Positions 2,490 through 44,195 of a DNA stretch of 64,000 bases are shown piece after piece. This DNA is from Tomocerus qinae. Its lineage: Eukaryota > Arthropoda > Collembola > Entomobryomorpha > Tomoceridae. Position numbers and translations under genes: made by a program. The first letter of the stretch is position 1, and the number at the start of each line of letters is the position of its first letter. Location: contig CM034546.1 of the NCBI GenBank assembly GCA_020055645.1, positions 11,904,001-11,968,000 on the forward strand. The letters run 5' to 3'. Below the pieces are notes generated by a model. That model saw only the letters and a program-made list of their open reading frames with translations. It was not told where the DNA came from and did not search any database.

Positions 2490-3170
2490 CTACCAATTTC
2501 TAGTTATGAAAAACAGGAGCATGTCCGTGCGTTTACCGAGGTTATTAAATCTACTTATGATTGTATTCCTCCAGTACAGCCTGATCTGTGTCATCACATC
2601 AAATTTATCTGATCTAATCCCACCTCTAATTGTTCTGACTTTACCCGGCAATAGTAGTATAGGATTTTGTGCCATTGAATCTAGAACAATTAAAGTAATA
2701 TTCATTTTGTTCATACAAAAGAAAATGAAAAAGGGTCAAGATCATTTGAATTTATAATTTCTCCAAGAGCAGCCATATCCGTGAAATAAGCAATCTGCTC
2801 ACAAGACTCAATTTGTTTCACTGAACGTGGCTCTACTAAATAAGTAATAACTATCCCTTTGCATCCGTTAGTCAATACGATGAACATCAGCAACAACGGA
2901 CCGATAACTAACTTGATCCAGAATATTTTATTAGCTTTTGCTGACTGAGAGTAACTGACCTCCAATGCATATGAAAAGCAGATCATAAGAAATGGAATAC
3001 CTTCATCTCCTTTGCAATATGCTACTCCGTGGACGAAAGCTATTACAGCAGCGAGAGTGACAAAAGTAAATTAAAAAGGTCAAATGTTTCGCCATAGAAT
3101 GAAAGACTCTCCTCCTCCAAGAGGACAAAAGAAATAAAATTGAAGGAATCATCCATGATGCCCATCTCAC
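2490..3170 (-). pseudogene. IR-like receptor fragment (pore and S2 region)
   Basis: The minus strand at 2714-2986 reads the pore-loop, M2/M3 and early S2 region of the array's receptors, including VLTNGCKGIVITYLVEPRSV, where intact paralogues have VLTNGYKGIVITDLVEPRPV. Upstream (2987-3165) the M1 and pre-M1 region is recognisable but broken. Downstream (2490-2710) S2 is shifted out of frame. The N-terminal domain and the M4 end are missing. It is close to the fragment at 9436-10085, with the same S2 lesions nearby, so the two probably come from duplication of an already damaged copy. Confidence 0.8.
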
Positions 3171-3249
3171 TTATGTTTACTCAATTTAGAACAAACCAAG
3201 CAAGAAGACTACCATAATTAAATACGGAGTTAATTCGTAAACAATTTAC

Positions 3250-3660
3250 GTTCCTTTTTGATAATGTCGCTAATTGACTAAGCAAGGTTCTAGTGCCACA
3301 TTATGTATTAAATTAAGCATTATTATTGATTAGTTAACCTCAATTCGTAAAGGAGTTTGTAAGTCTAGGAAATGAAAATGTATGACATACAAGGTTGAAA
3401 TTCGTTTAACCTTGCCAGTTCTATGACATTCGTGACTTTCAAAGAAATAGTACTATGTGTATAATTGAATATTTTATTATCTAATTCCCTAAGTAAAAAA
3501 ATATCAAAAGCAGAACATTTAGACATCCGAGTGAATTCTGAAAATCCGAAATATGCCGACTTGTCAAAAGACATTTTCACAAATATGAATTCTACCTTCG
3601 TCGCTATGTAAAACCAACTGCAGAAAGTTGACACTGTCACTTATACCTATTATTAAAATT
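3250..3660 (-). repeat. Receptor-array flank block with small ORF, copy 1
   Basis: Repeated at 10085-10480 and 24700-25060, with a diverged form near 44815-45060. On the minus strand it is open for 91 codons (3365-3640), with the shared text VKMSFDKSAYFGFSEF and LDNKIFNYT. The open frame persists in the 10-kb copy but is shifted in the 24.8-kb copy. No domain is recognised. It includes the short box described in the findings (3458-3500), which on the minus strand contains AATAAA. Confidence 0.6.
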
Positions 3661-3984
3661 GTAAAACTATGAAAGTGAATTTGTCTAAACGCATCTATGA
3701 GCTCGGCAATATGTACATACATGGTAGCTTCTATGGATCGGCAAAATAGATTTTTGTAAATTGCAAGGTAATGTAATAGTTTTGTATTGCTCGCAATTTT
3801 TAATAAATTCTAAACTTTTCAAAAAAATTTCAATAGATTTCAGTTTTTTAAAAACCATTTAATATAAAAATCGCGCGACGTTATTGCCACATTAATTGTT
3901 TATTATTTCCATGTTCAAGTGTTGTTTCAATATGTTCTCTAACAAACATTTAATTATCATATCATGTAATATTTATAGACATAG

Positions 3985-4315
3985 TCACAGTCACAGATTA
4001 AGTTATGCTGCAGCGGGTAATTGGATATTTGAATATGTGTCAGCCAAGTCGCGAGAGTAAAAAGGGACGCATTGTGATAAGCGTGGGGATAGTTAGAGTG
4101 GAAAGCAGAACGGAAAGGTGGTCAATTGGTCTTGGGCTTTGATGGTGTGCGTTTGGCTGACGGGATTAATACAACGGATGTGGCTCTGGACTTCGGATTA
4201 CGTTTCATTTGTGGCATCCAGCACACGGGCCTTTCAGGACGATTCGGTTCCCAGGTTCGGTCGACTTTGACAACGTGCAGGCTTAGCGTCTGAGGCGCAT
4301 CCCTAACCGAACCAT
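3985..4315. other. GC-richer insert of unknown origin
   Basis: About 330 bp of visibly higher GC content sits inside an AT-rich duplicon. The parallel place in the duplicon at 24.7-32.4 kb (around 27.05-27.69 kb) has unrelated sequence. No reading frame, tRNA or terminal repeat could be identified. Confidence 0.4.
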
Positions 4316-4477
4316 ATCTAAATACTTTTGAACCTTCCGATTGTTGTCAATGTAACAAAATGTAACTGAATTAGTTATTACCACATTTTGTTTTTAATAA
4401 TTATAATTAATAATTATTACTAACAATATAATAGTTTTCCTTTAGTAAATTTCTTAGCCATGTAGATAGGATCTTAA

Positions 4478-7021
4478 TTAGTTTCGTCCTCGGCTGATAA
4501 TTGATTGGTAGCACCGACGCATATATATGCGAAAGTTATGGAAAATATTATCTAAGAAAATATTTGTTTTTATTCTTCCAATTGTTGTTACTATTACAAA
4601 ATATAACTGGATTAGTTTTTCTTTCAAAGACACTCGGTTTTCCCACAGAAACGCTGAACTGAACACAATTGCAAGGATCAAAAATATATAAAAAATAGTT
4701 CCGATATTCGAATTGTGAAGTGTCAAAGCTCTGGCGGGAGGTCGGACCCAACAAGTTTTGCACTCTGTGAAATTCCATCTTTTGTAATGTTCTAGCCATA
4801 AATTATAAATTCCTGAATGACTTAAAGCAAACATCTTTCGTCTATAAAATTGATTGAGCATAGGAGATGCAATAGTAGAGAAGCCGGAATAAACTGAAGC
4901 GTATGAAAGTGAGTTTTCTGGCTTCCCACGATATAAGGGATGAATTGGCTGAACTCCTCCATTTCGAGGATTCCAATATGAATCATTGAATAAGCGATTT
5001 AGGGCAAGGCTCGAGAGAATTAATGCCGAATTATTGCATTTTGCTATCCACTGTTGGGGACTAATTGAGGTGGGAAACCCCTGAGGAAATCGAATCTTTT
5101 CACTAATTTTTAACATCATGTTGATAAAATGAGATGCATTCAATGAACTGCGGGCCATTAATCGAAATTGCAATAAATCATCTAGGATAGTATCATTGTA
5201 GCTTTGATATTCTTGCTCAATTTCAGTCTGATCTATGTCATCAATTTGGTAGCCTGTATCCCTTTTGTAATCATCAATTTCGAACCCTGATTTTTCTAAT
5301 TTTTCCATTTTTGCTTTACAGAAAGATGAATTATAGGATTTTGTGCCATTGGATTTCCAACAATCAAAGTAGATTGATTTTAGGAGATCTTCTTGAACAG
5401 GCAAAGTAACTAGAAAAGGGTCCAAATCATTTGAAGCTGTAAGCTCGCCAAAAGCTGTGATACTGGAGAGATTTGCAATCTGCTCAAGAGACTCAATTTG
5501 TTTCACTGGACGTGGCTCTACTAAATCAGTGATAACTATTCCTTTGTATCCGTTAGTCAATACAATGAGCATCAGCAACAACGGACCCATGACCAACTTG
5601 ATCCAGAGTGTTCTATTAGCTTTTGCTGGAAGAGAATAACTAACCTCCAATGCGTATGCAAAGCATATCATAAGAAATGGAATACCTTCATCTCTTTTGC
5701 AGTATGCCATTCCATGGACGAAAGCTATTACAGCAGAGAGAGTGGCAATAATTCCAAGCCAAGCGTAAAGTTGGAAAGGTCGAATGTATCCATAAAAGGA
5801 AAGACTCTCGTCTTCTAAAACGACACAGGAAATAAAATTAAAGGAATCCTCCATGGTGCCAATCACATTTAAATACGGGTTATACTTTATAGTGCGACTG
5901 CCATATGGTCTCGTGTCATTGAGAAAATTGAAATTGTTATAATATGTAGCAGCATATTCTATAGAAAAACATATGTCATCATGATAATAATGATCGTTGA
6001 CTGATATGGTGGAATTCATAGAATTTTCTAACACCGTAGAAACAATCGCAAGGTCGATTCGATTATATTTATTTAAATCATAAGTAGTTAAATATACGTT
6101 CAATAACGGTGGTCCGCAATATGGTTTAATCTCGTATGAATATTGGTCAAGCCACTCTCTAAAGTCTATAGCAACAAATTTCTGTATAAAGTTGTTTTCC
6201 GTCATGACATCTCTTAACACAATTTCACGCAGTGGTCGATTCATTGGACACTTGTTATGAACACATACCGACAGCATAACAAACGGTATTGTGTCTCTGT
6301 CCAAATATGCTGTATTATTAGGCGATATCAAATATATATCTTGTTGACTTTCATCTGATGATGACAAAACAAAACAGGCGATTTTCCAACAATTTGAGAA
6401 TTGGATTTTACCTGCGGGTACACTCGATTTTGACTTTGCAAGCGCAGAAATTTTTTTTTCAACAAAAATATACATAGAACTATGCTCTGCAAAATTGTAC
6501 ATTAACTCCAATTTCCCAATTTCACCTTTACGGCTGTTTATTGTTTTAAGGAATTCGTTTGTTTTCTCTTCATCAGATTTCGCAGTGATAATGTTCAGTA
6601 GTAGAACATCTAGGTGAAAGGTTGGATTGAAATTAAACGCAATATTCACCACACAAACTAAACGGCTTGCTATCAAACGTGGTAATGACAATCTGAATGT
6701 ACCGTTTTTACTAAAGTTCATCTTGCATTTTGAGCAGTATTTTTTCATATAGTAATTTGCATGTTCTTGGGGTAATACTGACATTGATTCTTTCAAATTG
6801 CAGACTTTTTTCTTATACGATTTTAGCTTTGTAAACGCGTATGGAATGTCGATTTGTTGTAATTCGTTAATCGACGGTTCATTTGGTTGTTTATTAAAAT
6901 AATTTGGCCCCAAAATTAAGTTAATGTAGCAGTCGTTTTCCATGTGGACAATATCTTTCAATTTCCACCCTAAAGACAATTCAAGCAGTGGAACAGTGAA
7001 CAATAAAATTGCAATTGACAT
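4478..7021 (-). CDS. Divergent ionotropic receptor-like protein, intact (IR-like 1)
   Basis: A single-exon frame of 847 codons. It has a signal-peptide-like start (MSIAILLFTVPLLELSLGW), a long cysteine-containing extracellular N-terminal part, and then iGluR/IR membrane order. The pre-M1 text VVLEDESLSFYGYIRPF is near residues 397-415, M1 about 420-440, a pore-loop-like stretch PFLMICFAYALEVSYS, M2/M3 ending VLTNGYKGIVITDLVEPR near 485-503, then S2, and M4 (FYIFLILAIVFSSAFLWE) near 773-793. The TDLVEPR element sits where iGluRs carry the SYTANLAAFLT gate, so gating residues are diverged. The family role is a cation channel in chemosensory neuron membranes; the ligand is unknown. The start is the MSI methionine shared by the paralogues. 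The closest relative here is 27857-30374. A lineage-specific iGluR-like family without sensory function cannot be excluded. Confidence 0.85.
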   Translation of the reverse strand: MSIAILLFTVPLLELSLGWKLKDIVHMENDCYINLILGPNYFNKQPNEPSINELQQIDIPYAFTKLKSYKKKVCNLKESMSVLPQEHANYYMKKYCSKCKMNFSKNGTFRLSLPRLIASRLVCVVNIAFNFNPTFHLDVLLLNIITAKSDEEKTNEFLKTINSRKGEIGKLELMYNFAEHSSMYIFVEKKISALAKSKSSVPAGKIQFSNCWKIACFVLSSSDESQQDIYLISPNNTAYLDRDTIPFVMLSVCVHNKCPMNRPLREIVLRDVMTENNFIQKFVAIDFREWLDQYSYEIKPYCGPPLLNVYLTTYDLNKYNRIDLAIVSTVLENSMNSTISVNDHYYHDDICFSIEYAATYYNNFNFLNDTRPYGSRTIKYNPYLNVIGTMEDSFNFISCVVLEDESLSFYGYIRPFQLYAWLGIIATLSAVIAFVHGMAYCKRDEGIPFLMICFAYALEVSYSLPAKANRTLWIKLVMGPLLLMLIVLTNGYKGIVITDLVEPRPVKQIESLEQIANLSSITAFGELTASNDLDPFLVTLPVQEDLLKSIYFDCWKSNGTKSYNSSFCKAKMEKLEKSGFEIDDYKRDTGYQIDDIDQTEIEQEYQSYNDTILDDLLQFRLMARSSLNASHFINMMLKISEKIRFPQGFPTSISPQQWIAKCNNSALILSSLALNRLFNDSYWNPRNGGVQPIHPLYRGKPENSLSYASVYSGFSTIASPMLNQFYRRKMFALSHSGIYNLWLEHYKRWNFTECKTCWVRPPARALTLHNSNIGTIFYIFLILAIVFSSAFLWENRVSLKEKLIQLYFVIVTTIGRIKTNIFLDNIFHNFRIYMRRCYQSIISRGRN

Positions 7022-7069
7022 TTTATGTACTGTTAAATAGAAGCAGTAATATTTCGATTAGTATTGATG

Positions 7070-7076
7070 ATTTATA
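7070..7076 (-). promoter_or_regulatory. TATA-like element of IR-like 1
   Basis: TATAAAT on the minus strand, about 50 nt upstream of the ATG. It lies in a block, followed by CATCAATA and then ATATTACTGCTT, that recurs at the same spacing before the receptors starting at 17538 and 30374. Conservation may simply reflect recent duplication. Confidence 0.4.
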
Positions 7077-7099
7077 ATCGTGAATGATAGATAATTTGG

Positions 7100-9430
7100 T
7101 CACCGTTCACTTGATTCATGATATCACAATTAGATGCACAGCTGGTGGATGTAATTCAAGAGACTAAACTGTACAAACGAGAAAGTAATGGTAAATGAAT
7201 TTTCCAACTTTTTAAATCAGTTTATCTAGTATAATGGCAAAGGTATTGATCTGCAATATGTTCTTACTGCCTCTCTTAAAATCCGATGAAATTAATATTA
7301 GGGAAGCTACAACCATTGCCGAAATTCAGCTCGGATAGCTACTTCTTAAAGTCTCGGTTTTGAAATAACACGAATACAGCAGTTGAAGTTCAATTCTCTC
7401 AGTTGAATTCAATTCATTGTTACGCACTTTGCGATGTGGTAAAAGCACAAGTGGAACACAAATATTAGTGTATGCAATGGGGGTAGGTTCAAGAATCCTT
7501 ATACAATTATTTATTTTCGCATAATATTATAATAACAATCTTAAATGTCAGTAAAGTGTAATTCCAAATACTAACTCGTCCTTTAATATAGTTGAGTAGA
7601 AACTAAAGGCTAAAATTGATTTTTAAATTTGTGTTTCCAAATATCTATGAAACCTGATGTTAGAAGTCGTGTTTGGCACATCTGAAAAGATTGTGACTTC
7701 CAAAGGGAAAGAAAGCCCAGTACCTATTTGTATAGAGAAACTGAATATTTTATTATCTAATCAACAAAGTAAGAAAATATGATAAGTAGAACATACAACC
7801 ACAGCCACCATCGTAGCTCGCCTGACGATATTATAGAACTCCACAGGTTTTTCGTCCGTACCAACGATAACTTTTGAACGCCAACAAAATAGTTGGCCAA
7901 ACTTGGAATAAAGAATGGCTAAGGAAGGTCCTAATTACGTTAATTAAGTTTCCATTACATTAGTAAATTAAAAATCGTATGATTGTCCAAGCTATTGAAA
8001 AGGTCTAATTTAGAGACCCACAAATGTTTTATTGTCATTTTTAATTTCCACTAACAGGATCTGTTGTAAGTGGAATGGTTTTTTGGGACCATAAAATTAT
8101 CTATAGATTAGGCAGAAAAATGTATGGTCAATTGGAACCCAAAATTATGTTAACCAATAATTTAGCAAATAGTACTTAATGCGTGTAATTTAAGAGCAAA
8201 AAATTCATGTTTGGAAAGCGCAAAGATTTATTTTGGTTTTACGACCATTTTAAGTATTTCATCCATTGTTAGTTTTTTAATAAAAGCGGCATTATTCGAA
8301 TTAATAGTAAAATTTTTCCATTTTTTGGGTAATGATTTACTAACTGTTGGACATTTTTCAACAATTAATAGGGATAGTTATAAGCCCACGGTTAACGTTT
8401 TTGCCAAGTTTGGTCAAATTCCGTCAACTGTGGGAGTTATCGTGGGTACGGATTTGGGGTTGTGCGTGCAATCCTTCGGACGGAATTTTGGGATTTTATA
8501 TAACTCGTTAGGCTAGCAAAAAGTTTTACCTTTCTTCCTTCTAATATAACATGTACATTGGAATTCCATCAGCTACACATGATATATTTGTGTCGTCTTA
8601 CAGCAAAGATATACTTACCTTAATTATTAAACCTAACATTAGTGTTAAGTAGTATCTTTAACTCCTAGTATATAATGCTAGGAAAAGGGTTGTATGGTCG
8701 TGCTTCAATCGAGGTTAGTGTTTGTGTGTGACAGTTCCTAGAAATTAGTCATTTTCTAAATGGAGAAAATCTAGTACCAGCATAGAGATATTGAATATTT
8801 TATTACCTAATCTACGAAGTAAGAAAAACGTCAAAAGTAAAACAGGCACAGCACAGTATCTCCTCCCCTATCTAAGTCACTATGTGCTAAATCCACACTG
8901 AAAATTATAGGTCAAACAGATTAACAGCAACACTTTAGTGCCCGGTGGAGAAGAAAATGAATCAATTATCATCGCTAACTTTTTTCGATTAAATATTAAT
9001 TGTTGAAATTTAAAAAAATGTGTACTTGTGGTAATTTTAGAAATGAGTACTACTTGATAAAAACAAATCTAACACAACCAACACATTATTGAAACGGATT
9101 GGTGATCATATACAGCAATCTACTATTCCATTCTCATATTAATTTTACTTATGTACTTTTCTATTTTTCGTTTTTGAATTATTTTGCTGTGTCTAAAAGG
9201 CAATCTAAGTTTGAAACAGTATATATATGTATAAAATATTATATTTAATCAACATTTTCTCATAAGCCTTTTTTCTCAAATGTTTTTATAATAGTACATA
9301 TTCGCTAGAATCGTCGGTAAAGAAAATTGGCCATAAGATATTCAAATTCACCTATAGGTATGTTAAAATCACCTCATAATACATTTAAATCACACCATTT
9401 TCAATTCTTATCTAAAAACTGTCACCTGTT
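7100..9430. repeat. Receptor upstream duplicon, copy 1
   Basis: Most of 7100-9100 matches 30450-32400 with scattered indels, so the duplication that made the receptors at 4.5 and 27.9 kb carried about 2 kb of upstream DNA. The open frame at 8211-8516 is interrupted by indels in the other copy and is not called a gene. The recurrent box occurs at about 7738-7790 and 8790-8830. Bases 9100-9430 are AT-rich with nothing recognised. Confidence 0.7.
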
Positions 9431-9435
9431 TTCGC

Positions 9436-10085
9436 TTAACCTTTCCATTTCCAAGTGTGGTACAATTGTGCATTAGGTAGCAAATTTCTGGTAATGAGAA
9501 GCGGTAGCAACTTATGATTGTATTCCTCCTGTATAGCCTCCTGTTCCATCAAATTTATCTGGTCTAATCCGACCTCTAAATGTTCTGACTTTACCCGGCA
9601 TAATGAGGTAGTATAGGATTTTGTGCCATTGAATTTAGAAAAATTGAAGTAATACTCACGTAGCATCTCTTTTTGTTCATACAAAGGAAAATGAAAAAGG
9701 GTCAATCTCATTTGAATTTATAATTACTCCAAGAGCAGCCATATTTGTGAGATGATAAGCAATCTGCTCAAAATGCTCAATTTGTTTCACTAGAGGTGGC
9801 TATAATAAATCAGTGATAACTAATCATTTGTGTCCGTGGGTCAATACAATAAGAACAAATAAAAACCGACCTATAACCAACTTGATCCATAATATTTTAT
9901 TAGCATTTGCTGATAGAGAATAACTGACCTCTAATATATATGGAAAGCAGATCATGAGAAATAAAATACCTTTGCAATATGCTACTTCGTGGACGAATGC
10001 CATTACAGCAGCGAGAGTGACAATGATTCAAAGCGAAGCGTAAAGTTGAAACGGTCGAATGTATCCATAAAAGGAAACATTTTGA
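9436..10085 (-). pseudogene. IR-like receptor fragment (M1 to S2)
   Basis: On the minus strand, 9436-9711 reads S2-type sequence (FNGTKSYTTSLCRVKSEHLE) homologous to NGTKSYNSSFCKAKMEKLE in the intact gene. Bases 9712-10085 carry the pore and M3 region with several frame breaks, ending at the pre-M1 segment. The N-terminal domain and M4 are absent. It is a duplicate of the fragment at 2490-3170, with additional independent damage. Confidence 0.8.
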
Positions 10086-10480
10086 TAATGTCGCTAATTG
10101 GCTAAGCAAGTTTCTAGTGCCACATTATTTATTAAATTAAGCATTATTATTGATTAGTTAACCTCAATTCGGAAAGGAGTTTGTAAGTCTAGGAAATGAA
10201 AATATATGACATATACAAGGTCGAAATTCGTTTAACCTTGCCAGTTCTATGACATTCGTGACTTTCAAAGAAATAGTACTATATGTATAATTGAATATTT
10301 TATTATCTAATCCCCTAAGTAAAAGAATATCAAAAGCAGAATATGTAGACATCCGAATGAATTCTGAAAATCCGAAATATGCCGACTTGTCAAAAGACAT
10401 TTTCACAAATATGAATTCTACCTCCGTCGCTATGCAAAACCAACTGGTGTAGAAAGTTGACACTATGACAATGATTTTTA
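10085..10480 (-). repeat. Receptor-array flank block with small ORF, copy 2
   Basis: Near copy of 3250-3660. The minus-strand frame 10164-10463 is open for 99 codons and shares VKMSFDKSAYFGFSEF with copy 1. About nine amino-acid changes separate the copies over roughly 80 codons, and a 2-nt indel near the end changes the C-terminus. This looks more like passive duplication than a conserved protein. Confidence 0.6.
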
Positions 10481-10689: not shown

Positions 10690-11130
10690 GCTAAATTATA
10701 ATCTCATAGACTAACAGCATTTAAGCACCCGTAAAGGCGTGCTTTGCTATATTCTGTTGACTTTACTGAACTGCCAAAATCGTCCAACCAATTATAATAT
10801 TAAAGTACGCACAATAAGGAAACAGTTCAATGCTTTCCAACTTATGAATGACACTTTACTCTCTACTTATTACATAATTTACTTACTTTCAAAATTACAT
10901 GAAGAACATGTACTCATTTCATCTAGTATGTACCTAGGATCTTCTTGACTTAGTTTGGCACACACACCTGGTGCATATGCTCACATAATTTGTGAAAATA
11001 TAATTTCAAGCATAAGAACCTTTTGCTTTTAATCTTCCGATTGTTGTCAAAGTAATAAAATATACTTGGATTAGTTAATACCACACTTTGTTTTTTATAA
11101 TATTAATAATATAATTATTACTGTGGCTCA
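10690..11130. repeat. Duplicated block shared with 27070-27840
   Basis: Starts with ACTAACAGCATTTAAGCAC and ends in the AT-rich stretch after CTTCCGATTGTTGTCAAAG. The 27-kb copy is longer because of about 350 bp of extra sequence at 27310-27660. The last third also matches 4320-4440, immediately 3' of IR-like 1, so this is the downstream flank of a receptor that is now missing here. Bases 11130-11777 hold nothing recognised. Confidence 0.65.
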
Positions 11131-12430: not shown

Positions 12431-12434
12431 AATA

Positions 12435-15013: not shown

Positions 15014-17538
15014 TTACAATCGATGTTTCTGGGATCTCCTAGTCTTGGTTGGATGAAAATATTGACGCAAATAGACTTTACACCTGAGAAAAGCATAATC
15101 TAAATCAAAAGAATATCTTGCATTTAATTTTCTGATTTCTGTTATTGTAACAAAATGTAAATGGATTAGTTTTCCTTTCACGGAAACTCGATTTTCCCAC
15201 AAAAACGCTGAACTGAACACAATTGTGAGGGTCAAAAATATATAGAAGATAGTTCCAATATTCGAATTGTGAAATGTCAAAGCTCTGGCGGGAGGTCTCG
15301 CCCAGCAAGTTTTGCACTCCGTAAAATTCCATCTTTTGTAATGCTCCAGCCATAAATTATAAATTCCCGAATGACTTCTCGTCTATAAAATGGACTGAGC
15401 ATAGGAGATTCGCCAATGGAAGAGAACCCGGAATACACTAAATTTGAAAAAATTGAGTTTTCTGGCTTTCCACGATATAAGGAATGAATTGACTGAACTC
15501 CTCCACTTTGAGGATTCCAATAAGAATCATTGAGAAGGCGATGCAGGGCAAGATTTGAAAGAATCAATACTGAATTATTGCATTTTGCGATCCATTGTTG
15601 GGGACTGACTGAGTAGGGAAATCCAGGAGGAATTCGAATTTTGTCGCTAATATGTAACATCATTTTGATAATAGGAGTCACATTAGATGGACTGTTAGCC
15701 ATTATTTGAAATTTAAAAATAATATGTTGGATCAAAGAAAAGTAAGCTAGGAAGTTTTCCACAAGTACTGCTCGATCTGTATGATCAAATTCGAAACTTG
15801 AATGTTTTAAGTTTTCTAACTTCGCATTGCAATATGATGAATTAAGGGATTTTGTGCCATTGGATTTGGAACAATGGGAGTAGTATTCAACTAGCAGATA
15901 TTTTTGTTCTTCAAAAGGAAACATAAAAGGGTCAAAATCATTTGAATTTACAGTTTCTCCAAGAGCAGTCATATCGGAGAGATTAGCCATCTGTTCAAAA
16001 GTCTCAATTTGTTTCACTGGACGTGGCTCTACTAAATCAGTGATAACTATTCCTTTGTATCCGTTGGTCAATACAATGAGCATCAGCAACAACGGACCGA
16101 TGACCAACTTGATCCAGAGTGTTTTATCAGCTTTTGCTGACAAAGAATAACTAACCTCCAATGCATATGCAAAGCAGATCATGAGAAATGGAATACCTTC
16201 ATCTCTTTTGCAATATGCCATTCCATGGACGAATACTATCACAGCAGAAAGAGTGGCAATGATTCCAAGCCAAGCGTAAAGTTGAAAAGGCCGAATGTAT
16301 CCATAAAAGGAAAGACTTTCGTCTTCTAAAACTACACAGGAAATAAAATTAAAAGAATCCTCCAAGATTCCAATCACAGTTAAGTACGGGTGATAGTTTA
16401 CACTGAATTTACCACTAAACCTATAATCATAGAGAAACATGAAATTGTTATAATACGTAGTAGCATCGAAGGCAATAAAACATTTTTGGTCTTCATCGTT
16501 CACTGATATGGTCGAATTCATAGAACTTTCTAATACAATAGAAACAATCGCAAGATCGATTCTATTGTATTTTTTAAAATCATAAGTAGTTAAATATGTG
16601 TTTATCAGCGGGGGCCCACAATATGGTTTATATTCGTATGTATATTGGAAATTTTCTTCCTCTATATAGTCTATAGCAACAAATTTCTGCACAAAGAAAT
16701 TTTCCCTCATGATATCGCTTAACACCATTTCACGCAGTGGTCGATTCATTAGGCATTTGTTTTGGAGGCATATACGCCTAATAGAAAACGGTATTGTTTT
16801 TCTGCTCCGATATGCTGTATACTGAGGCCATATCAAGTATATATCTTGCTCATCTTCGTCTGATGATGGCAATACAAACCAAGCATTGTCCCAAAAATTT
16901 TCGATATTAGAAAAAGTTACGCCTATACTCGATTTTGACTTTGCGAGTGCAAAAGCTTTTTTATCAAGAAAAATGTACACTGAAGAATATTCTGCAAAAT
17001 TATACATGTAATCCAAATACCAATTTCCAACACTTCTAGCATCTGGATAGCCGTTTACTGATTTCATGAATTTGTTTATTTTATCTTTCTCATCAGATTG
17101 CATGGTAATAATATGAAGTAATAGAGCATCTGGGGTATACGCTGGATCAAAATTAAAAGCAATATTCACCACACAAACTAAACGGTTTGCTATTAATCGT
17201 GGCGATGACAATCTGAATGTATCGTTTTTAATAAACTTCGTTTTACATTTTGAGGCGTATTTCGTCTCTAAGTGTGCAAATATAGGGAAAAATGGCATTG
17301 ATTTTTTCAAATTGCATTCTTTTTTCTTATAAAACTTTAGCTTTGTAAAGGCGTATGGAATGTCAATTTTTTGTAATTCCTTAACAGACGGTTCTGATTC
17401 CCTATTTAAATATTTTGGCCGCAAGATCAAATTAATGTAGCAGCCCTTTTCAAGGTTAACAACATCTTTTAGTTTCCACCCTAAAGAATATCCAATCACG
17501 ATTAGTTGAAGAGTGAACAATAAATTAATAATTGACAT
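15014..17538 (-). pseudogene. Ionotropic receptor-like 2, single 13-bp deletion before M4
   Basis: Single-exon receptor with the array's usual layout: signal peptide from the MSI start at 17538 (an upstream in-frame ATG at 17559 is not shared by paralogues), cysteine-bearing N-terminal domain, VVLEDESLSFYGYIRPF pre-M1, M1, pore loop, VLTNGYKGIVITDLVEPR and S2. Near 15376-15380 it lacks 13 nt present in the paralogues (the codons for KMFAL and neighbours). The frame then ends after about 40 out-of-frame residues at 15277. The correct M4 frame (HNSNIGTIFYIFLTLTIVFSSAFLWE) resumes and stays open to 15014. Everything else is intact, so the lesion is recent, polymorphic, or an assembly error. Confidence 0.8.
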
Positions 17539-17592
17539 TTTAGCGTAGAAGCAAAGCATATAAAAGCAGTAATATGTCGATTTGGATTGATG

Positions 17593-18611: not shown

Positions 18612-18613
18612 TA

Positions 18614-23300: not shown

Positions 23301-23307
23301 AATGCAG

Positions 23308-27856: not shown

Positions 27857-30374
27857 CTATCCGTGTTGATAGGATTTTAATTGGTGTGGTCGTCGGCTGA
27901 CGATTGATTGGCAGCATCGACCCATATACACGAGGAAATGGTGAAAGAGATCATTATCTAATATCAAAGAAATATTTGTGTTTATTCTTCTGATTTTTGC
28001 CAATATAGCAAAATATAACTGGATTAATTTCTCTTTCAAAGACTCTCGGTTTTCCCACAAAAACGCTGAACTGAATACAGTTGCAAGGATCAAAAATATA
28101 TAAAAGATAGTTACTATATTCGAATTGTGAAGTGTTAAAGCTCTGGCGGGAGGTCGAACCCAACAAGTTTTGCACTCTGTAAAATTCCATCTTTTGTAAT
28201 GTTCTAGCCATAAATTATAAATTCCTGAATGGCTTAAAGCAAACATCTTTTGCCTATAAAATGGATTGAGCATGGGAGATGCAATAGTGGAGAAGCCGGA
28301 ATAAACTGAAGCATATGAAAGTGAGTTTTCTGGCTTCCCACGATATAAAGGATGAATTGGTTGAATTCCCCCACTCCGAGGATTCCAATAAGAATCATTG
28401 AAAAGGCGATGTAGGGCAAGGCTCGAGAGAATTAATGCCGAATTATTGCATTTTGCGATCCATTCATGGGGATTAATTGAGTTGGGAACACCCAGAGGAA
28501 ATCGAATCTTTTCACTAATTTTTAACATAATTTCGATAAGATGAGAGACATTCGATGAACTGTGGGCTATTAATCGAAATTGCAATAAATAATTCAGGAT
28601 ATCATTACTAAGACTCTGAAATTCTTGCTCAAGTACAGTCTGATCTATGTCATCAAGTTGGTAACCTGACTGATCTACTTTTTCCATTTTTGCCTTGCAG
28701 AGTGATGAATTATAGGATTTTGTGCTATTAGATTTCCAACAATCATAGTATAAATATCCTAGGAGTTCTTTTTGTGCATCCAGAGTATAATGAAAAGGGT
28801 CCAAGTCATTTGAATCTGTAAGCTCCCCAAGAGCTGTCATATCCGAGAGATTTGCAATCTGCTCAAGAGACTCAATTTGTTTCACTGGACGTGGCTCTAC
28901 TAAATCAGTGATAACTATTCCTTTGTATCCGTTGGTCAATACAATGAGCATCAGCAACAACGGACCGATGACTAACTTGATCCAGAGTGTTTTATCAGCT
29001 TTTGTTGGCAGAGAATAACTAACCTCCAATATGTATGCAAAGCAGATCATAAGAAATGGAATACCTTCATCTCTTTTGCAATATGCCATTCCATGGACGA
29101 AAGCTATTACAGCAGCGAGAGTGAGAATAATTCCAAGCCAAGCGTAAAGTTGAAAAGGTCGAATGTATCCATAAAAGGAAAGACTCTCGTCTTCTAAAAC
29201 AACACAGGAAATAAAATTAAAAGAATCCTCCATGGTTCCAATCACATTTAAATACGGGTTATAATGTACATTGCGACTGGTCATTGGTCTCGTGTCATTG
29301 AGAAAATTGAAATTGTTATGATATTTAGCAGCATAATCATCGAAAAAACATGTGTCATTATAATCGTTTACTGATATGGTTGAATTCATAGAACTTTCTA
29401 ATACAATTGAAACAATCGCAAGATCGATTCTATTGTATTTATTTAAATCATAATTAGTTAAATATGTGTTCAACAACGGTGGCCCGCAATATGGTTTAAT
29501 TTCGTATGAATAGTGGTCAACCCACCCAATATGGTCTATAGTAACCAATTTCTGCACAAAGGTGCTCTCGTTTATGATATCTCTTAACACAATTTCACGC
29601 ATTGGTCGAATCATTGGACACTTGTTATGGAGGCATACCGAATACAAAGCAAACGGAGTTGTGTCTGTGTCCCAATATGCTGTTTGATCAGACCATATTA
29701 AATATATATCTTGTTGATCTTCATCTAAAGATGACAAAACAAACCAGGCTTTTTTCCAGCAATTTGACAATATTCTGTCACCTATGGGAACACTCGATTT
29801 TGACTTTACTAGCGCAGAAATTTTTTTTTCAACAAAAATATACATTGAACTATGCTCTGCAAAATTGTACATAAACTCGTCTAAGAATTCGTTTTTTTTT
29901 CTCTTCATTAGAATTCATAGTGATAATGTTAAGTAGTAGCACATCTTGGGTAAAAGTTGGATTAAAATTAAATGCAATATTCACCACACAAACTAAACGG
30001 CTTGCTATCAAACGTGGTGAAGACAATCTGAATGTATCGTTTTTACTAAAGTTCATCTTGCATTTTGATGAGTGACTTTTAATATATTTTGCATAATAGT
30101 TTTCAGAGTGATTTTGAGGTAATAAAGACAGTGATTCTTTTAAATTGCAGACTTTTTTCTTATATGATTTTAGCTTTGTAAACGCGTATGGAATGTTGAT
30201 TTGTTGTAATTCGTTAACCGTAAGTTCATCTGATTGTTTATTAAAATAATTTGGCCGCAAAATTATGTTAATGTAGCAGTCCTTTTCCAGGTGGACAATA
30301 TCTTTCAATTTCCAACCTAAGGACAATTCAAGCACGAGCAGTTGAAGAGTGTACAATAAAATAGCAATTGACAT
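27857..30374 (-). pseudogene. Ionotropic receptor-like 3, one frameshift in the N-terminal domain
   Basis: Sister of IR-like 1. From the MSI start at 30374 (an ATG 21 nt upstream is not shared) the frame is open through the signal peptide and first 160 residues, to a T9 run at 29892-29900. There the paralogue reads GTTTGTTTTC, and one extra nucleotide shifts the frame. About 33 nt just beyond are also missing. The second frame is open to the stop at 27857 and holds the rest of the N-terminal domain, VVLEDESLSFYGYIRPF, M1, pore loop, VLTNGYKGIVITDLVEPR, S2 and M4 (FYIFLILATVFSSAFLWE). A single homopolymer slip could be a sequencing error, so the gene could be functional. Confidence 0.8.
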
Positions 30375-30425
30375 TTTATCTACTTTTAAATACAAGCAGT
30401 AATAATATGTCGATGAGTATTGATG

Positions 30426-30432
30426 ATTTATA
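30426..30432 (-). promoter_or_regulatory. TATA-like element of IR-like 3
   Basis: TATAAAT on the minus strand, about 52 nt before the MSI start, in the same block (CATCAATACTCATCGACATA) as at 7070-7076. Confidence 0.4.
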
Positions 30433-30449
30433 ACCGTGAATGATAGATA

Positions 30450-32400
30450 ATTTCGTCTGTGTTCACTTGATTCATGACATACCTTTTAGATGCACAGTTT
30501 GTGGATGTAATTCAGCAGATGAAACTGTAGAACGAGAAAGTATAGTAATTGAATTTTTCAAAATTCAGCTCTTGGATAGCTACCTTTTAAAATCTTGGTT
30601 TTGATATAGCACAGAAACAGCAGTTGAAGTTCAAATTCATTGTTACACACTTTACGATGTGGTAAAAGCACAAGTAGAAACTCGCAGAAAACGCAAACAT
30701 AAGCGTATGTGATTGAGGTAGGTTCAATCTAGATCCCTTATACTGTTTTTTATTTAAGCATTATACTAACCATCTTAAATGTTATTAAAGTGTAATTTCA
30801 AATACTATCTTGTCCTTCAATATAGATGAGTAGAAAATAAAGGCTTAAATTTATTTTTTTAAAGTTGCTTCAAAATATATACGAAACACAATGTTAGAGG
30901 TCAATTGTGTTTGGCACATCTGAAAAAATTGGGGCTTCCAAAGGGAAAGGAAGCCCAGTACCTACTTGAATAGGGAAACTGAATAATTTATTATCTAATC
31001 AACAAAGTAAGAAAATATGAAAAATAGAACATACAAGCCCAGCAACCATCGTAGCTTGCCTGATGAGATAATAGAACCCTACAGTTTGTTCGTCCGTACC
31101 CACGATAACTTTTGAACCCAAAGACGGCAGTTGGGAAAACTTGGCACAAGCAATACCTTATAGGAATACTGACTATCATTAATTGCGTTTCCAATAAATT
31201 AGTAAATAAAAAATCATATTGTTGGCCAAACTATTGAAAAAGGTCCAATTTAGGCCCCCACAAATATTTTCTAATGTCATTTATAATGTTTACTAACAGG
31301 ATCTGTTAAAAGTGGAAATGTTTATTGGGACTATAAAAATACCTATATCAGCAAGCAGAATAAAATGGGCAATTTTAAGCTGTAATTATGTTAAGCAATA
31401 ATTTGGCAAATAAAACTTACACATTTATACATGTAATTTCAGAGCAGAAAATCATATTTAAAAAGCATACATATTTATTTTGGTTTTACAACCATTTCTA
31501 GTATTTCAACTATTTTCAGTTAATGTAACAAAAGCAGCATTATTCGAATCAACAGTAAGCATATAGCATTTTTGGGTTTTACTAATTACTAACCTTTGGA
31601 CATATTTTTTCAACAATTAACAGGGTTCGTCAAAAGCACATGGAAAACGTCTTTGCCAAGTTAGATCAAATTCCGTCAATTTCGTGTGTTATCCTTGGTA
31701 CGGATTTGGGAGTACTATGGTAGTGCCATCTCGCGGACGGATGGACTGTATCATTTTATATAACTCGTCAGGCGAGCTAAAAGTCTTCTTTCTAATATAA
31801 CATGTACATTGAAATTCCATCAGCTACACATGATATATTTGTGTCGCCTTACAACCTAGATATACTAACCTTAATTATTAAACTATGCATTAGTGTTAAG
31901 TAGTGCCTTTAATTCCAGTATAATATAATGCTTGAAAACGGGTCGTATAGTTGTGCTTCAATATAAGTTAGTGTTTGTGTTTGCCATTTCCGTGGAATTA
32001 GTCATTTTCTAAATGGAGAAAATTTAGTACCTATCTACGTAGAGAAATTGAATATTTTATTACCTATAATCAACAAAGTAAGAAAAAGTAAGCAATACAA
32101 AGCACAATATTTATTTAAAAAATTAGAGATTGTCAAAATACATTTGTGTCAATAGTATGTCCCCTAGCTAGGTCTCTATGTGCACCATCCCCAATGAAAA
32201 TTATATACCTAATTGATTAACAGCGGTTTAGTGCCCCGACGAGAAGAAAATTAATGATCAGCGTTAAATTTTTCGCATTAAAATATTAATTGTTAAAATT
32301 TGCAATTGCATTTGTGGTAATTTTAGAAATGAGTACCACTTAATAAAAACAATTCGAACACAACATTTATCGAAAAGGATTAGTTATTATATACTACTAG
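30450..32400. repeat. Receptor upstream duplicon, copy 2
   Basis: Matches 7100-9100 throughout, with many small indels. These also break the frame that is open at 8211-8516 in the other copy. Recurrent boxes are at about 30973-31015 and 32045-32090. Confidence 0.7.
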
Positions 32401-33530: not shown

Positions 33531-33538
33531 AATGAAGG

Positions 33539-36449: not shown

Positions 36450-38681
36450 TTAATTGTGTCGAGGAACTACTAAAATTTTATTAGTATCATGTGTTCTCTG
36501 AATTAATATTTCTCCTTGATGGCTTAATGTGGAGATCCGGTCAATGATTATACGAAACAATACACGTTTACCTTCCCAAAAAAGTACTAATAAGGCCAAA
36601 ATTAGACCTGAAATATAAATAGCGAAAATAGTAAAAATGTTTGAATTATAAAAATTCAAAGGGCGTGGTTGGTCTCTATCGAAACAATGTTTACATTGGA
36701 TATAATTAAAATGATTGAAGACATCCATCCATTTATCTTGTAGTCCAGATTGGGATAGAATATAAAGTTTTCGTTTTATGTATCCGAGAAGAAAAATAAA
36801 TTTGCTTGTTACTTTCGTAACATCAGTAAAGGTATTGTTATCGGGAACTCCAAAGTACAACTTTCGAATAGGCTTAATCCCCTTTTTAACGTTCCAATAA
36901 GAATCGTTTAAAAATCGATGAATTGTGCTTTGTCTATCTACCAACACTGATCTGTTACATTGAGATATCCATTGTTGAAGAGTCAAATACGGAGGATAAT
37001 ACAGCTTGTTAATAATTCCTTTAAACTTTTCCCTAATTCGATACCAACCTGAATCCCAATAAAGAGAAAACTCTCTTTGAGTATCGTCAAGATGGTTAGT
37101 ATGGTATGGCAACTCTTGGCGAAGTGGACTGACAACTGAAATATGGTCCAGCGTTGCAATTTCTTGAAATGACTCAATTTTTCTTGTGGCTCTGGGCTCA
37201 GTTAAATCTGTTATGACGATTCCTGCATAGCCATAGGTGAGGACGATTAGCATTAGTAAATATGGACCCAGTACAATTTTGAACCAAAAATGTTTCTCCA
37301 ATTTGTTGGGGTATCCGCAATTGTTACTAACGACATAAGCACAGCAAGTGAAGATAAATTGGTGGATTTGATTGAACTTCAAATACAAAGTGAGTTGGAA
37401 GAAAGATGTGACAATGAATATTGTGGACAGAATCCCAATCCACGCAGGGAGTTGAAATGGACGGATGTAGCCGTAGAACGACAGACTCTCATCCTCAAGG
37501 ACCACACAAGATATATAATTATAACTGTCTGTATGAGTTGGAATTATTGTTTCAGAAGCTCTATTGTCTTCCTGTTGAATTGACCATCCGAAGTATATTG
37601 AAGATATATGACTTTTCAAATAACACGGTTTCAATGGAGTATAAACTGTTGAATTAATAAATCTGTGGAACACAATAGAAGACAAAATAACAACCACGTC
37701 CATCTTTTTTCCACTGAAAGCTGTTAAAAAGGATTCGTTCTTTATTATGGGCCCACAGTAATGACTTATTCTGGTTCCTGAGTAACGATAAATCTCAGAA
37801 TTCAGTTTTTCCTTAACGTAATCACTGTTCAAAGTAATTTCTGCACGGATTTTTCTTAAGAGTGTCCAGTCAAGTGGTCTTCCTCCCGTGGTGACATTGT
37901 GTGAGAAAACCAAATTGTCTTTAAATACATTTGATTCTTTTGGACTGTTCTTAACTTCCCGTTCACAATTTCCACAAATAAAAAATATTCTTTCGTCTTC
38001 TTCTGCTAACGAATGTACAAAGTAATGTCCTTCCAATCCAGAGAAAGGAATAATGTCACTCAATTTGGTTTGATTGCTCAGTGAACCAATGATTTCTTTT
38101 TTTATCAAGAAATAAACATTTGTATAGTCTTCAAATTGAGACTGATGCATCCGATTGTAATAACAGGTTTTTCCAAATGACAGGTAAGGCTTTTGAAATG
38201 CAGTATTGTCTTCATCGAACCGGAAATTAACTCCTACATAGTCTAATATATATTTTGTCAATTCAATGTCAATCCAGTTGTTGGAATTTACATCTACAAA
38301 AAGATGCACGATGCATGTGAATCGGTTATTCAAGTACGGTGAATAACTAATAGGTTTTCCTTCAGGACACACATACGAAAGACCTATAGCTCTATTCAAT
38401 CTTTGTTCTTGTTCCTCTTCTGTAATATTTGAATAATTTAAAGCAAAAATTCTTTTCATAAAATTAACATTTGTTAAAGAATATGGAGTATTTGTTTTCA
38501 TTAAATCCCTCAAAACTGTTGTAGTTTTTAAGGAGTACGGTTTGTAAACTATAATGTTGATGTAGCAATTTTTCTCTGTTAACATTAACTTTTCTAATTT
38601 TCCTGATTGAACAATACTCCGTATTGCAAAAATAGCCAACAAAGTAAATTTTATGCAATTTATATTCCAGTTTTTAATCAT
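36450..38681 (-). CDS. Divergent ionotropic receptor-like protein, intact (IR-like 4)
   Basis: Single-exon frame of 743 codons, about 100 shorter than its neighbours and clearly the most distant member. A hydrophobic signal-like N-terminus (KFTLLAIFAIRSIVQSG) precedes a cysteine-rich extracellular domain. VVLEDESLSFYGYIRPF is retained unchanged near residues 393-410. M1 (AWIGILSTIFIVTSFFQL), a pore-loop-like stretch, LTYGYAGIVITDLTEPR near 480-497, S2 and M4 (IFAIYISGLILALLVLFWE) near 675-697 follow. S2 is about 80 residues shorter than in IR-like 1. No stop or shift is present, so it is probably functional. It lacks the flank duplicons of the other copies, so it likely predates the recent expansion. 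Ligand unknown. Confidence 0.85.
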   Translation of the reverse strand: MIKNWNINCIKFTLLAIFAIRSIVQSGKLEKLMLTEKNCYINIIVYKPYSLKTTTVLRDLMKTNTPYSLTNVNFMKRIFALNYSNITEEEQEQRLNRAIGLSYVCPEGKPISYSPYLNNRFTCIVHLFVDVNSNNWIDIELTKYILDYVGVNFRFDEDNTAFQKPYLSFGKTCYYNRMHQSQFEDYTNVYFLIKKEIIGSLSNQTKLSDIIPFSGLEGHYFVHSLAEEDERIFFICGNCEREVKNSPKESNVFKDNLVFSHNVTTGGRPLDWTLLRKIRAEITLNSDYVKEKLNSEIYRYSGTRISHYCGPIIKNESFLTAFSGKKMDVVVILSSIVFHRFINSTVYTPLKPCYLKSHISSIYFGWSIQQEDNRASETIIPTHTDSYNYISCVVLEDESLSFYGYIRPFQLPAWIGILSTIFIVTSFFQLTLYLKFNQIHQFIFTCCAYVVSNNCGYPNKLEKHFWFKIVLGPYLLMLIVLTYGYAGIVITDLTEPRATRKIESFQEIATLDHISVVSPLRQELPYHTNHLDDTQREFSLYWDSGWYRIREKFKGIINKLYYPPYLTLQQWISQCNRSVLVDRQSTIHRFLNDSYWNVKKGIKPIRKLYFGVPDNNTFTDVTKVTSKFIFLLGYIKRKLYILSQSGLQDKWMDVFNHFNYIQCKHCFDRDQPRPLNFYNSNIFTIFAIYISGLILALLVLFWEGKRVLFRIIIDRISTLSHQGEILIQRTHDTNKILVVPRHN

Positions 38682-41083: not shown

Positions 41084-41091
41084 GTGTATAG

Positions 41092-41678
41092 AGAAATTGA
41101 AATATTTACTATCCAATCAACAAAGTAACGAGAAAAGCAAATAAATGTAGAACATACAGACAAATGACGCATTTTGAAAATAAGCAAAAAGTCCGGTTTA
41201 TTAAAAGACATTTTCACAAATATGACCACTAGCTATAAGTCACTACATGAAAACAACTAACCAGGAATAATTGACATTTATATCCATTATTAAATTTGTA
41301 AAACTGTGATGAGTGGTTTAAGTGGTTTAAAATTTTGGTAGATGTTTCTGATTTCCTTATGCAGAGAACAGAGAATAAATAATATTATGGCGAATAAATT
41401 CTGTGAAGATTAAATCTCTGTAGCTACTTCAGATTGGCAAAGAATATTTCTTAAATCCGAGGGATTGCTGTATATTGGTACAATGCACTTTTGTAATATT
41501 TCCCGTGTTTTACATTACATTCGAATTTGTCAATTCATCATATACTTTTTAGACTATAAAAATGTGCGACGTTAATCATATTTTGTGTCGTAATAATATT
41601 AATAAAATAATTATATTGCTAAAACAATAAAATAGTTTTCCTTTGATAAATTTCCTAGCCATGTAGATAGGATCTTAA
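41092..41678. other. 3' flank of IR-like 5
   Basis: Starts with the GAAATTGAAATATTTACTATCC form of the recurrent box. A degraded match to the small frame of copies 1-3 (VKMSFNKP) lies on the minus strand at about 41170-41229. No gene is seen. Confidence 0.5.
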
Positions 41679-44195
41679 TTAGTTTGGTCCTCGGCTGACG
41701 ATTGATTGGTAGCACTGACGCATATACACGCGAAGATTATGAAAAAGGTTATCTAATACCAAGGAAATGTTTGTTTTTATTCTTCCAATTGTTGCCAATG
41801 TAACAAAATATAACTGGATTACTTTCTCTTTAAAAGCCACTCTGTTTTCCCATAGAAATGCTGAACTAAAAACAAGTGCAAGGATCAAAAATATAAAAAA
41901 GATAGTTCCGATATTCGAATTGTGAAATGTCAAAGCTCTAGCGGGAGATCTCACCCAACAAGTTTTGCACTCTGTGAAATTCCATCTTTTGTAATGTTCC
42001 AGCCATAAATTATAAATTCCTGAATGACTTAAAGCAAATAACTTTCGTTTATAAAATGGATTAAGCATGGGAGAATAAATAGTTGAGAACCCGGAATAAA
42101 CTAATGTATTTAAAAATGAGTTTTCTCTCTTCCCACGATATAAGGTGTGAATTGGCTGAACTCCTCCACTATGAGGATTCCAGTGAGAATCATTAAGAAA
42201 GCGATGCAGTGCAAGGTTTGAGAGAATTAATATCGAATTGTTGCATTTTGAGATCCATTGTTGAGGACTGTTTGAGTCGGGAAATCCCGGAGGAGCTCTA
42301 ATCTTTTCCTTGAGCTTTAACATCATTTTGACATTATTTGCATTAGCAACATGAGTTAACTCCAATAAACTTTGGATCATTTTTCGAAATTTGAAAGATT
42401 CGTCCAGGTGATCATTATTGAATGTCTGAAATGTTTCCTTAATTACCTCCTCATCTATATTATCAAATTGGAAACCCGATTGTTCTAGGTGTTCTAATTT
42501 TGCCTCGCAAAATGATGAGTTATATGATTTTGTGCCATTATATTTGCGGCAGTCGTAGTAGTAGGAAATTAGCTGTTGCTTTCGATGAAACAAAGAAAAA
42601 TAAAAAGGGTCAAGATCATTTGATTTTAAAGTTTCCCCAAGAGCAGTTATATCCGAAAGATTTGCAATCTGCTCAAATGACTCAATTTGTTTAACTGGAC
42701 GTGGCTCTATCAAATCAGTAATGAATACTCCTTTGTATCCGTTGGTCAATACGATGAACATCAGCAACAACGGACAAATGACAAATTTAATCCAAACTTT
42801 TTGATTGACTTTTGCTGATATAGAATAACTTATCTCCAATGCATATGCAAAGCAGATCATAAGAAATGGAATACCTTCATCTCTTTTGTAATATGCCATT
42901 CCATGGACGAAAGCTATTACAACAGACAGAGTGACAATGATTCCAAGCCAAGCGTAAAGTTTAAACGGTCGAATGTATCCATAAAAGGAGAGACTCTCAT
43001 TTTCCAAAACGACACAGGATATAAAATTAAAAGAATCCTCCACGATGCCAATCACATTTAATCCGGGATGGTACATTAAATTTATGATACTATAAGGCCC
43101 AGTGACGTAAAGGAAATTAAAGGAACCATGATATATTGCAGCATAGTCTTCACTAAAACATGCGCCATCGTTGACTGACATGGTCGAATTGATAGCCTTT
43201 TCTAATACAATAGAAACAATGGCATGATCGATTCTATTGTACTTATTTAAATTATAAGTAGTTAAATATGTGTTTAACAGCGGTGGCCCACAATATGGTC
43301 TATATTCGTATGAATATTCGCCTTCTGCCATTTCGTGTATATAGTCGATAGCAACGAATTTCTGCAGAAAGATTATCTCCCTCATTAATTCGCTTAGCAC
43401 AATTTCACGCAGTGATCCATTCATAGCGCAATTCCTTTGGAAGCATAAAGACCGCATAACAAAAGGTATTGTTTCCCTATTCTGATATGCTGTATAATGT
43501 GGCAATATCAAATATATATCTTGCTCATCTTCATCTGATAATGGCACCACAAACCAGGCTTTTTCCCAAAAATTTTCGAATATGGGCGAAGTTGCACCTA
43601 CACTCGATTTTGACTTTGCGAGCGCAAAAGTTTTTTTACCAAGAAAAATGTACACAGAAGAATATTCTGCAAAATTGTACATATTGCGCAATCCCCAATA
43701 GGTAGAGCGGTCCATTGTTTTAAGGAATTTATTGGTTTTTTCTTCATCCGATTTCTGACTCATAATATGAAGCAATAGAATATCTGGTGTGTACGTTGGA
43801 TTAAAATGAAATGCAATATTCACCACACAAACCAAACGGCTTGCTATTAATCGTGGTGATGACAATCTGAATGTATCGTTTTTACGAAAGTTTCTCCTAC
43901 AATTTGAATAGTATCTGCTCAATGGCACTGAAAATATTTGAGGCATTATCACCATTAATTTTTTTAGATTACATTCTTTTTTCGTATAAAATTGTAAATT
44001 TGTAAACGCGTATGGAATGTCCATTTGCTGTAATTCGTTAATTGACGGTTCTTCTGATTGTCTATTATTATATTTTGGACGCAAGATCAAATTAATGTAA
44101 CAGTCCTTTTCAAGATGGACAACATCTTTCAATTTCCATCCTAAAGACAATTCAATCACGATCAGTTGAAGACTGAACAGTAAAATAATTGACAT
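41679..44195 (-). CDS. Divergent ionotropic receptor-like protein, intact (IR-like 5)
   Basis: Single-exon frame of 838 codons with no lesion. Signal-like start MSIILLFSLQLIVIELSLGW, N-terminal domain with the same cysteine spacing as IR-like 1 and 2, pre-M1 VVLENESLSFYGYIRPF (one change, D to N) near 392-410, M1, pore loop PFLMICFAYALEISYS, VLTNGYKGVFITDLIEPR near 482-499, S2, and M4 (FFIFLILALVFSSAFLWE) near 755-778. S2 carries an extra AxANNVKMMLKLKEK-type stretch. Upstream, the TATA block of the other receptors is not recognisable, although CGACATATTTCTAG is retained next to the ATG. It is nearest to IR-like 2 in sequence. Ligand unknown; it probably works with a co-receptor, as other IRs do. 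Confidence 0.85.
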   Translation of the reverse strand: MSIILLFSLQLIVIELSLGWKLKDVVHLEKDCYINLILRPKYNNRQSEEPSINELQQMDIPYAFTNLQFYTKKECNLKKLMVIMPQIFSVPLSRYYSNCRRNFRKNDTFRLSSPRLIASRLVCVVNIAFHFNPTYTPDILLLHIMSQKSDEEKTNKFLKTMDRSTYWGLRNMYNFAEYSSVYIFLGKKTFALAKSKSSVGATSPIFENFWEKAWFVVPLSDEDEQDIYLILPHYTAYQNRETIPFVMRSLCFQRNCAMNGSLREIVLSELMREIIFLQKFVAIDYIHEMAEGEYSYEYRPYCGPPLLNTYLTTYNLNKYNRIDHAIVSIVLEKAINSTMSVNDGACFSEDYAAIYHGSFNFLYVTGPYSIINLMYHPGLNVIGIVEDSFNFISCVVLENESLSFYGYIRPFKLYAWLGIIVTLSVVIAFVHGMAYYKRDEGIPFLMICFAYALEISYSISAKVNQKVWIKFVICPLLLMFIVLTNGYKGVFITDLIEPRPVKQIESFEQIANLSDITALGETLKSNDLDPFYFSLFHRKQQLISYYYDCRKYNGTKSYNSSFCEAKLEHLEQSGFQFDNIDEEVIKETFQTFNNDHLDESFKFRKMIQSLLELTHVANANNVKMMLKLKEKIRAPPGFPDSNSPQQWISKCNNSILILSNLALHRFLNDSHWNPHSGGVQPIHTLYRGKRENSFLNTLVYSGFSTIYSPMLNPFYKRKLFALSHSGIYNLWLEHYKRWNFTECKTCWVRSPARALTFHNSNIGTIFFIFLILALVFSSAFLWENRVAFKEKVIQLYFVTLATIGRIKTNISLVLDNLFHNLRVYMRQCYQSIVSRGPN

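Follow-up and report, generated by a model that had tools for sequence, protein, structure and literature searches.

A putative array of divergent ionotropic receptor genes in the springtail Tomocerus qinae

What kind of protein is encoded by a run of related and apparently intronless genes on one strand of a springtail chromosome, and how did such a run arise? The question is raised by a 64-kb stretch of the genome of Tomocerus qinae (C1:11904001-11968000, in an assembly of 334.4 Mb in 115 contigs), hereafter called the window. A first-pass annotation, made from the letters alone, had proposed an array of receptors resembling ionotropic receptors (IRs) and caught in a process of birth and death. 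The best explanation, which we consider quite probable, is a tandem array of single-exon and highly divergent IRs, forming one node of a several-hundred-copy family that has grown mainly within one chromosome.

With the three open window proteins (P0001, P0002 and P0003) as tblastn queries, eight homologous copies were located between 2.6 and 44.2 kb, all of them on the minus strand and each at E ≤1e-19 with P0001 as the query; as far as the open frames show, the copies have no introns. Seven of the eight belong to a group that we call clade A, and the remaining one, P0002, to its sister clade B (28-30% identity to P0001), with tree support of 100/99 for each of clade A, clade B and their union. 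The proteins would consist of a signal peptide, an extracellular N-terminal/S1 half, M1, a pore loop, M3, an extracellular S2, M4 and a short tail. P0001 (847 amino acids, aa) and P0003 (838 aa) are single open frames from the signal peptide to past M4, and single open frames were also found in 14/14 and 8/8 fetched relatives, which were picked among rows listed as open. P0002 is without 62-67 S2 residues just after M3 that 8/8 fetched relatives hold, and may therefore be disabled despite its open frame.

Homology to other ionotropic receptors

The identity of these proteins rests on comparison with receptors of the same genome, which contains at least 144 matches to the Pfam domain Lig_chan (counted per exon, with 150 of 256 candidates scored), many of them in single open frames of about 580-760 aa; fourteen named control genomes gave zero Lig_chan matches. 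Three sets were compared: A1, the window family (3 sequences); A3, a wider set of the family (17 members); and A2, 17 ordinary single-exon IRs out of L009-L027. The A2 set was drawn from 22 open frames, leaving out L006 (the same gene as L009), L010:1465-3168, L015:2020-3597 and L015:5934-7511 (shorter), and L028 (891 aa). Lig_chan is found in 17/17 A2 members, Lig_chan-Glu_bd too in 7/17, and the A2 profile finds glutamate receptors among solved structures (best E 5.2e-43).

Pairwise, against the set of 22, P0001 matches L024 (E 7e-9), L017:5233-7104 (E 5e-6) and L021 (E 1e-4), the remaining sequences giving E 0.003 or worse, or no match. At the profile level, A1 matches A2 with E 8e-11, and A3 matches A2 with an hhalign score of 88 (E 1.3e-9), over a span running from the region before M1 through M1, the pore loop and M3 into the beginning of S2. 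Twenty-one controls (one reversed, 10 column-shuffled and 10 block-shuffled, the last roughly keeping the hydrophobic layout) score between 14 and 28. After removal of the three closest relatives from A2, the A3 score is still 49.0 (E 8.7e-5). The end of S2 and M4, compared alone, score 32.4 vs at most 19.5 in 10 controls. Because there is profile homology to Lig_chan-positive proteins, and shuffled and reversed controls fail, the window proteins can be regarded as IR-derived.

The membrane order of ionotropic glutamate receptors and IRs, claimed by the first-pass annotation, is borne out: M1, M3 and M4 are found by hydropathy in 3/3 open proteins, with a signal peptide in P0001 and P0003. More specifically, the order S1-M1-P-M3-S2-M4 emerges from hydropathy together with the S2-end/M4 profile match, the pore loop being aligned at the sequence level only. 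The AlphaFold2 models of the three open window proteins are useless (mean pLDDT, the predicted local distance difference test, 28.5) and weigh neither way.

Several results weigh against this identification. The Pfam search for Lig_chan, which the first-pass annotation had put forward as its own check, finds the domain in none of the six window frames, nor in any of the 17 clade members, whose weak Pfam matches are scattered over unrelated families (the best is TseB-like, E 0.0003, in 1/17). Searches of PDB sequences with P0001 and with A3 gave no match, and comparison of the N-terminal/S1 half with other IRs gave nothing detectable (hhalign probability 0.1), so that the bilobed ligand domain is a putative one. 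The proposed IR identity is thus upheld by profile homology to 17 Lig_chan-positive proteins and by membrane order, and not by Pfam. An unrelated multi-pass membrane family, IR-like in its membrane order only, would account for the missing Lig_chan, PDB and S1 matches; however, it would have to produce a score of 88 where 10 block-shuffled controls reach at most 28, and a second region, S2/M4, matches independently. We consider such a family very improbable.

Two Lig_chan-positive proteins, L017:5233-7104 and L024:1437-3683, bridge the ordinary IRs and clades A and B; M3 of L017 reads GYKSTLRNDITFPRP. L024 groups with the two clades in the tree (100/98), although its position is unsure because of its long branch.

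Gate, pore loop and selective constraint

The motif that the first-pass annotation quoted for the gate position, LTNGYKGIVITDLVEPR, is indeed present. Clade A reads GYKGIVITDLVEPR or near it (GYKGIVITDLV) and P0002 reads GYAGIVITDLT, and the canonical SYTANLAAFLT is absent from 17/17 A3 members, while three other sequences of this genome, L001, L002 and L004, carry it. As a novelty, however, this motif has to be rejected, since SYTANLAAFLT occurs in 0/17 of the ordinary A2 IRs as well, which read YKTNLVSFLTFP and similar; an altered gate is therefore no anomaly among divergent IRs. The M3 tyrosine is kept in 17/17 members of A2 and in 17/17 of A3, and the window motif looks like a further step along a common drift. 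The tip of the pore loop appears to be more distinctive than the gate: in a by-eye LEQ/LEV alignment it is Q in 16/17 ordinary IRs vs V (13), I (3) or N (1) in A3, although hhalign places this correspondence some residues off from the by-eye match.

Since the pore-loop Q appears to be replaced by V, I or N, ion conduction is not assured, which is a further point on the opposing side. Indeed, the loss of Q in 17/17 members (by the same by-eye match), together with the replacement of SYTANLAAFLT, is what could be expected if the proteins were IR-derived and non-conducting. Such proteins might act as subunits of a decoy, chaperone or dominant-negative kind, or else as surface receptors that form no channel. 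A non-conducting role is improbable in our judgement: the ordinary IRs of the same genome do without SYTANLAAFLT too, and the strongest constraint falls on the pore block. Specifically, over 120 pairs among 16 open clade-A genes, the pore block has a median ratio of nonsynonymous to synonymous substitution (dN/dS) of 0.13, as against 0.24 for M4 (from 101 usable pairs), 0.38 for S2, 0.50 for the N-terminal/S1 part and 0.91 for the tail (from 107 pairs). These values are rough, as the median proportion of synonymous differences (pS) is near saturation, at 0.53 in the pore block and 0.56-0.61 elsewhere. Five close pairs give 0.18-0.23 in the pore block vs 0.41-0.53 in S1.

Gene conversion was considered as the chief cause of the uniform pore, and rejected: pS in the pore block is near that elsewhere, and dN/dS there does not exceed a third of the S1 and S2 values. 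It may nevertheless add to the uniformity, because dS is lower in the pore block than in S1 in 5/5 close pairs (0.165-0.404 vs 0.345-0.583), a result which also counts against selection as the full account. A constrained channel part next to a freer ligand-facing part would be expected of tuning receptors. In contact-chemosensory or olfactory neurons, the proteins may thus be the tuning subunits within ligand-gated cation channels. They would assemble, via the constrained pore block, with conserved co-receptors of the IR25a/IR8a/IR76b type, and their freely varying S1 and S2 lobes would set ligand specificity. The array proteins are probably taste or smell sensors, with the caveat, again on the opposing side, that the chemosensory role is extrapolated from other IRs.

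Growth of the array and placing of the family

The features of the array are given in Table 1. The first-pass annotation had counted nine copies or fragments, of which the eight on the minus strand are confirmed, including two with a single frameshift apiece and three decayed fragments. The three genes that it called open are all open, but P0002, being of the sister clade and without part of S2, does not qualify as a clean intact member. The ninth item, an inverted scrap, is plausible by eye and not established: it is the best of six plus-strand matches at E up to 10 and the sole one credible by eye (MLNPFYRRKLF), at E 0.09 with P0003 and 0.53 with P0001. In the 3′ flank remnant, positions 10966-11115 match 27676-27824 at 91% over 151 columns (blastn), and tblastn gives a weak match to a tail-like stretch (E 0.01 and 0.06).

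Table 1. Positions of receptor copies, fragments and duplicated blocks in the window
Positions	Strand	Feature	Basis
2553..9113		Block made up of a fragment, a spacer, a gene and some 2 kb of 5′ flank; its pieces are paralogous to 21.8-32.4 kb	self-blastn
2624..3174	-	Decayed clade-A fragment, about aa 384-576 of P0001, in two frames	tblastn, translation
4478..7021	-	Intact single-exon receptor gene P0001, 847 aa	open frame, tblastn
9463..10138	-	Decayed clade-A fragment that starts just ahead of FYGYIRPF and runs into S2	tblastn, translation, blastn
10943..11122	-	3′ flank remnant of a further copy	blastn, tblastn
15038..17559	-	Clade-A copy with a single frameshift near 15.37 kb; 760-aa open frame 15277-17559	tblastn, translation
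19739..19795	+	Possible inverted scrap, 19 residues, weak	tblastn, translation
21390..22291	-	Decayed clade-A fragment, about aa 406-716, in several frames	tblastn, translation, blastn
21799..32394		Second paralogous block	self-blastn
27857..30374	-	Clade-A copy with a single frameshift near 29.88 kb; open frames 27857-29908 and 29850-30395	tblastn, translation
36450..38681	-	Open single-exon gene P0002, sister clade B, 743 aa	open frame, tblastn, tree
41679..44195	-	Intact single-exon receptor gene P0003, 838 aa	open frame, tblastn

Comparison of the window with itself (self-blastn) resolves two paralogous blocks into parts: a fragment (2645-3106 vs 21799-22289, 81%), a spacer (3320-3915 vs 24702-25346, 76%), a gene (4326-7207 vs 27734-30561, 84%) and a 5′ flank (7322-9113 vs 30561-32394, 76%), with a reduced third version at 9.5-11.1 kb. 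Two of the three decayed fragments, 9463-10138 and 21390-22291, have one upstream breakpoint in common: similar letters (HYQN and HYHN) stand before the break, ahead of SFYGYIRPF, and the mutual match of the two reaches 10149/22358, while their match to other copies ends at 10083/22289. A dead piece has therefore been copied after its death, along with live genes. This pattern fits unequal crossing-over of blocks rather than retroposition of single genes. The family would have grown by block duplication, chiefly inside one chromosome, its copies being pruned by frameshifts, deletions and decay; birth and death, as originally proposed, agrees with the block duplications, the single-lesion copies and the decayed fragments. 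The death of the two single-lesion copies looks recent, because their dN/dS against P0001 and P0003 (0.45-0.58) is close to that of the intact pair (0.41).

Inside the array, a 270-aa frame at 25618-26430 (+) has a CCYPACNEIETLEQTQVF stretch near its end and no Pfam match at E 0.01; judged by eye, it is perhaps the end of a non-LTR (long terminal repeat) retrotransposon.

The size of the family was estimated from exact matches of a degenerate 24-base pattern for FYGYIRPF over the whole genome, of which there are 393, with none for the reversed pattern; the figure takes in fragments and haplotype copies and leaves out copies with a changed motif. Two subsets of these matches (77 and 35, together 112), defined by codon and hence not random, were listed in full, the other 281 being not fully listed: 105 lie on C1, four on C16, two on C53, one on C74 and none on C2-C5. 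The codons of clade B fall mostly outside these subsets, and its placing rests on the protein search with P0002. The protein searches gave 58 matches for P0001 (in the best 53 of 1461 first-look candidates) and 119 for P0002 (in the best 60 of 1381), and among these scored candidates all matches are on C1 except those on C16. The latter score the same as loci at C1:13.54-13.58 Mb and share two of three motif spacings with them, so that C16 is probably a second, unmerged haplotype of C1:13.54-13.60 Mb. Family members range from 0.8 to 137.5 Mb on C1, which makes up 42% of the assembly, the contigs beyond C1-C5 totalling at most about 17 Mb. Other Lig_chan-positive single open frames of at least 480 aa number at least 15 on C2-C5.

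Elsewhere on C1, pairs of motif places recur with near-identical letters and similar spacing (1.82-1.84 and 2.01-2.03 Mb; 10.73-10.75 and 10.78-10.80 Mb), which suggests recent segmental duplications of receptor blocks.

With 2/8 window copies fully intact, and a dead fragment duplicated together with a live gene, the family could be mostly a graveyard that passive segmental duplication spreads and of which few copies are used. We regard this as doubtful, more so than non-conducting receptors. There is no internal stop in 49/58 and 116/119 rows among the best-scoring genome matches (lists which favour good copies and ignore frameshifts), and purifying selection is found on the 16 open clade-A genes, the fetched relatives having been picked among open rows. 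Somewhat less unlikely than either is an IR superclade A+B so far unrecognised, of at least several hundred loci, invisible to Pfam and spread across more than 130 Mb of the single chromosome that carries nearly all of it, whose rebuilt gate and filter could mark either a channel type that gates or permeates differently, or a receptor system that serves another purpose than ordinary chemoreception.

Outside the array, the region 47481-54960 contains two arms of 3072 nt, inverted relative to each other and 100% identical, plus further partial copies; the open frames there have a YIGETGRDYNVRF stretch, which we take to be GIY-YIG-like, and a weak Pfam match to DUF2441, and the element is presumably a retroelement of Penelope-like appearance. 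A 208-aa open frame at 46420-47046 (-), with no Pfam match at E 0.01, resembles by eye part of a gustatory-type receptor. A Rad17 P-loop exon (Pfam E 8.9e-16) is found at 58963-59490 (-), a possible further Rad17 exon (RAD24_helical, below its cut-off) at 57536-58072 (-) and a C2H2 zinc-finger protein (Pfam) at 61055-62704 (+).

Comparison with known receptor systems

Arrays of this kind have precedents. The drosophilid divergent IRs are mostly single-exon and species-specific, stand in tandem arrays with birth and death, as here, and are under weaker purifying selection than the antennal IRs (PMC2924276). The open window genes are likewise single-exon, a feature of the divergent IR subfamily in Croset et al. 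(2010). In contrast to the present family, the Drosophila repertoire is much smaller (62 IRs in D. melanogaster; PMC6175461), and its IR94 clade is spread over several chromosome arms (PMC2924276). The cockroach Blattella germanica has 897 IRs, with a mostly intronless clade and 43.8% pseudogenes, mostly with single lesions like those of two window copies (PMC6175461), an expansion that the Campodea paper treats as an independent event (PMC6938034). Another parallel is Campodea augens itself, with 2,424 mostly intronless divergent IRs, 901 of them pseudogenes (37%), mostly by single lesions, as well as many shorter fragments and both tandem and segmental duplication. In Campodea, however, a great many copies stand singly on scaffolds or at a distance from any other (PMC6938034), whereas here 105/112 of the fully listed motif matches are on one chromosome and 7 on small contigs. 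Given these precedents, the array is of a known kind.

Among springtails, at least 15 IRs are given for Holacanthella (PMC5644144), and none of the open-licence PubMed Central (PMC) papers listed by literature searches was on a large collembolan IR expansion. Among the same papers we have not seen described a clade this large, invisible to Pfam and nearly confined to one chromosome. With 393 motif places and Pfam matches to Lig_chan in 0/17 members, domain-based counts of chemoreceptors may therefore be far too small in such animals.

Within T. qinae, the ordinary IRs of the A2 set resemble clades A and B in their single open frames, in an alignable M1-M3 region and M4, and in a degenerate M3 motif (e.g. 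YKTNLVSFLTFP), and differ from them in length (592-748 aa), in the presence of Lig_chan in every member and in the pore-loop Q of nearly all. Furthermore, the Lig_chan-positive frames of the same genome are also found on C2-C5, unlike the placed members of clades A and B, whose near-confinement to C1 offers a clean case for studying how a large receptor family can spread in cis and not in trans.

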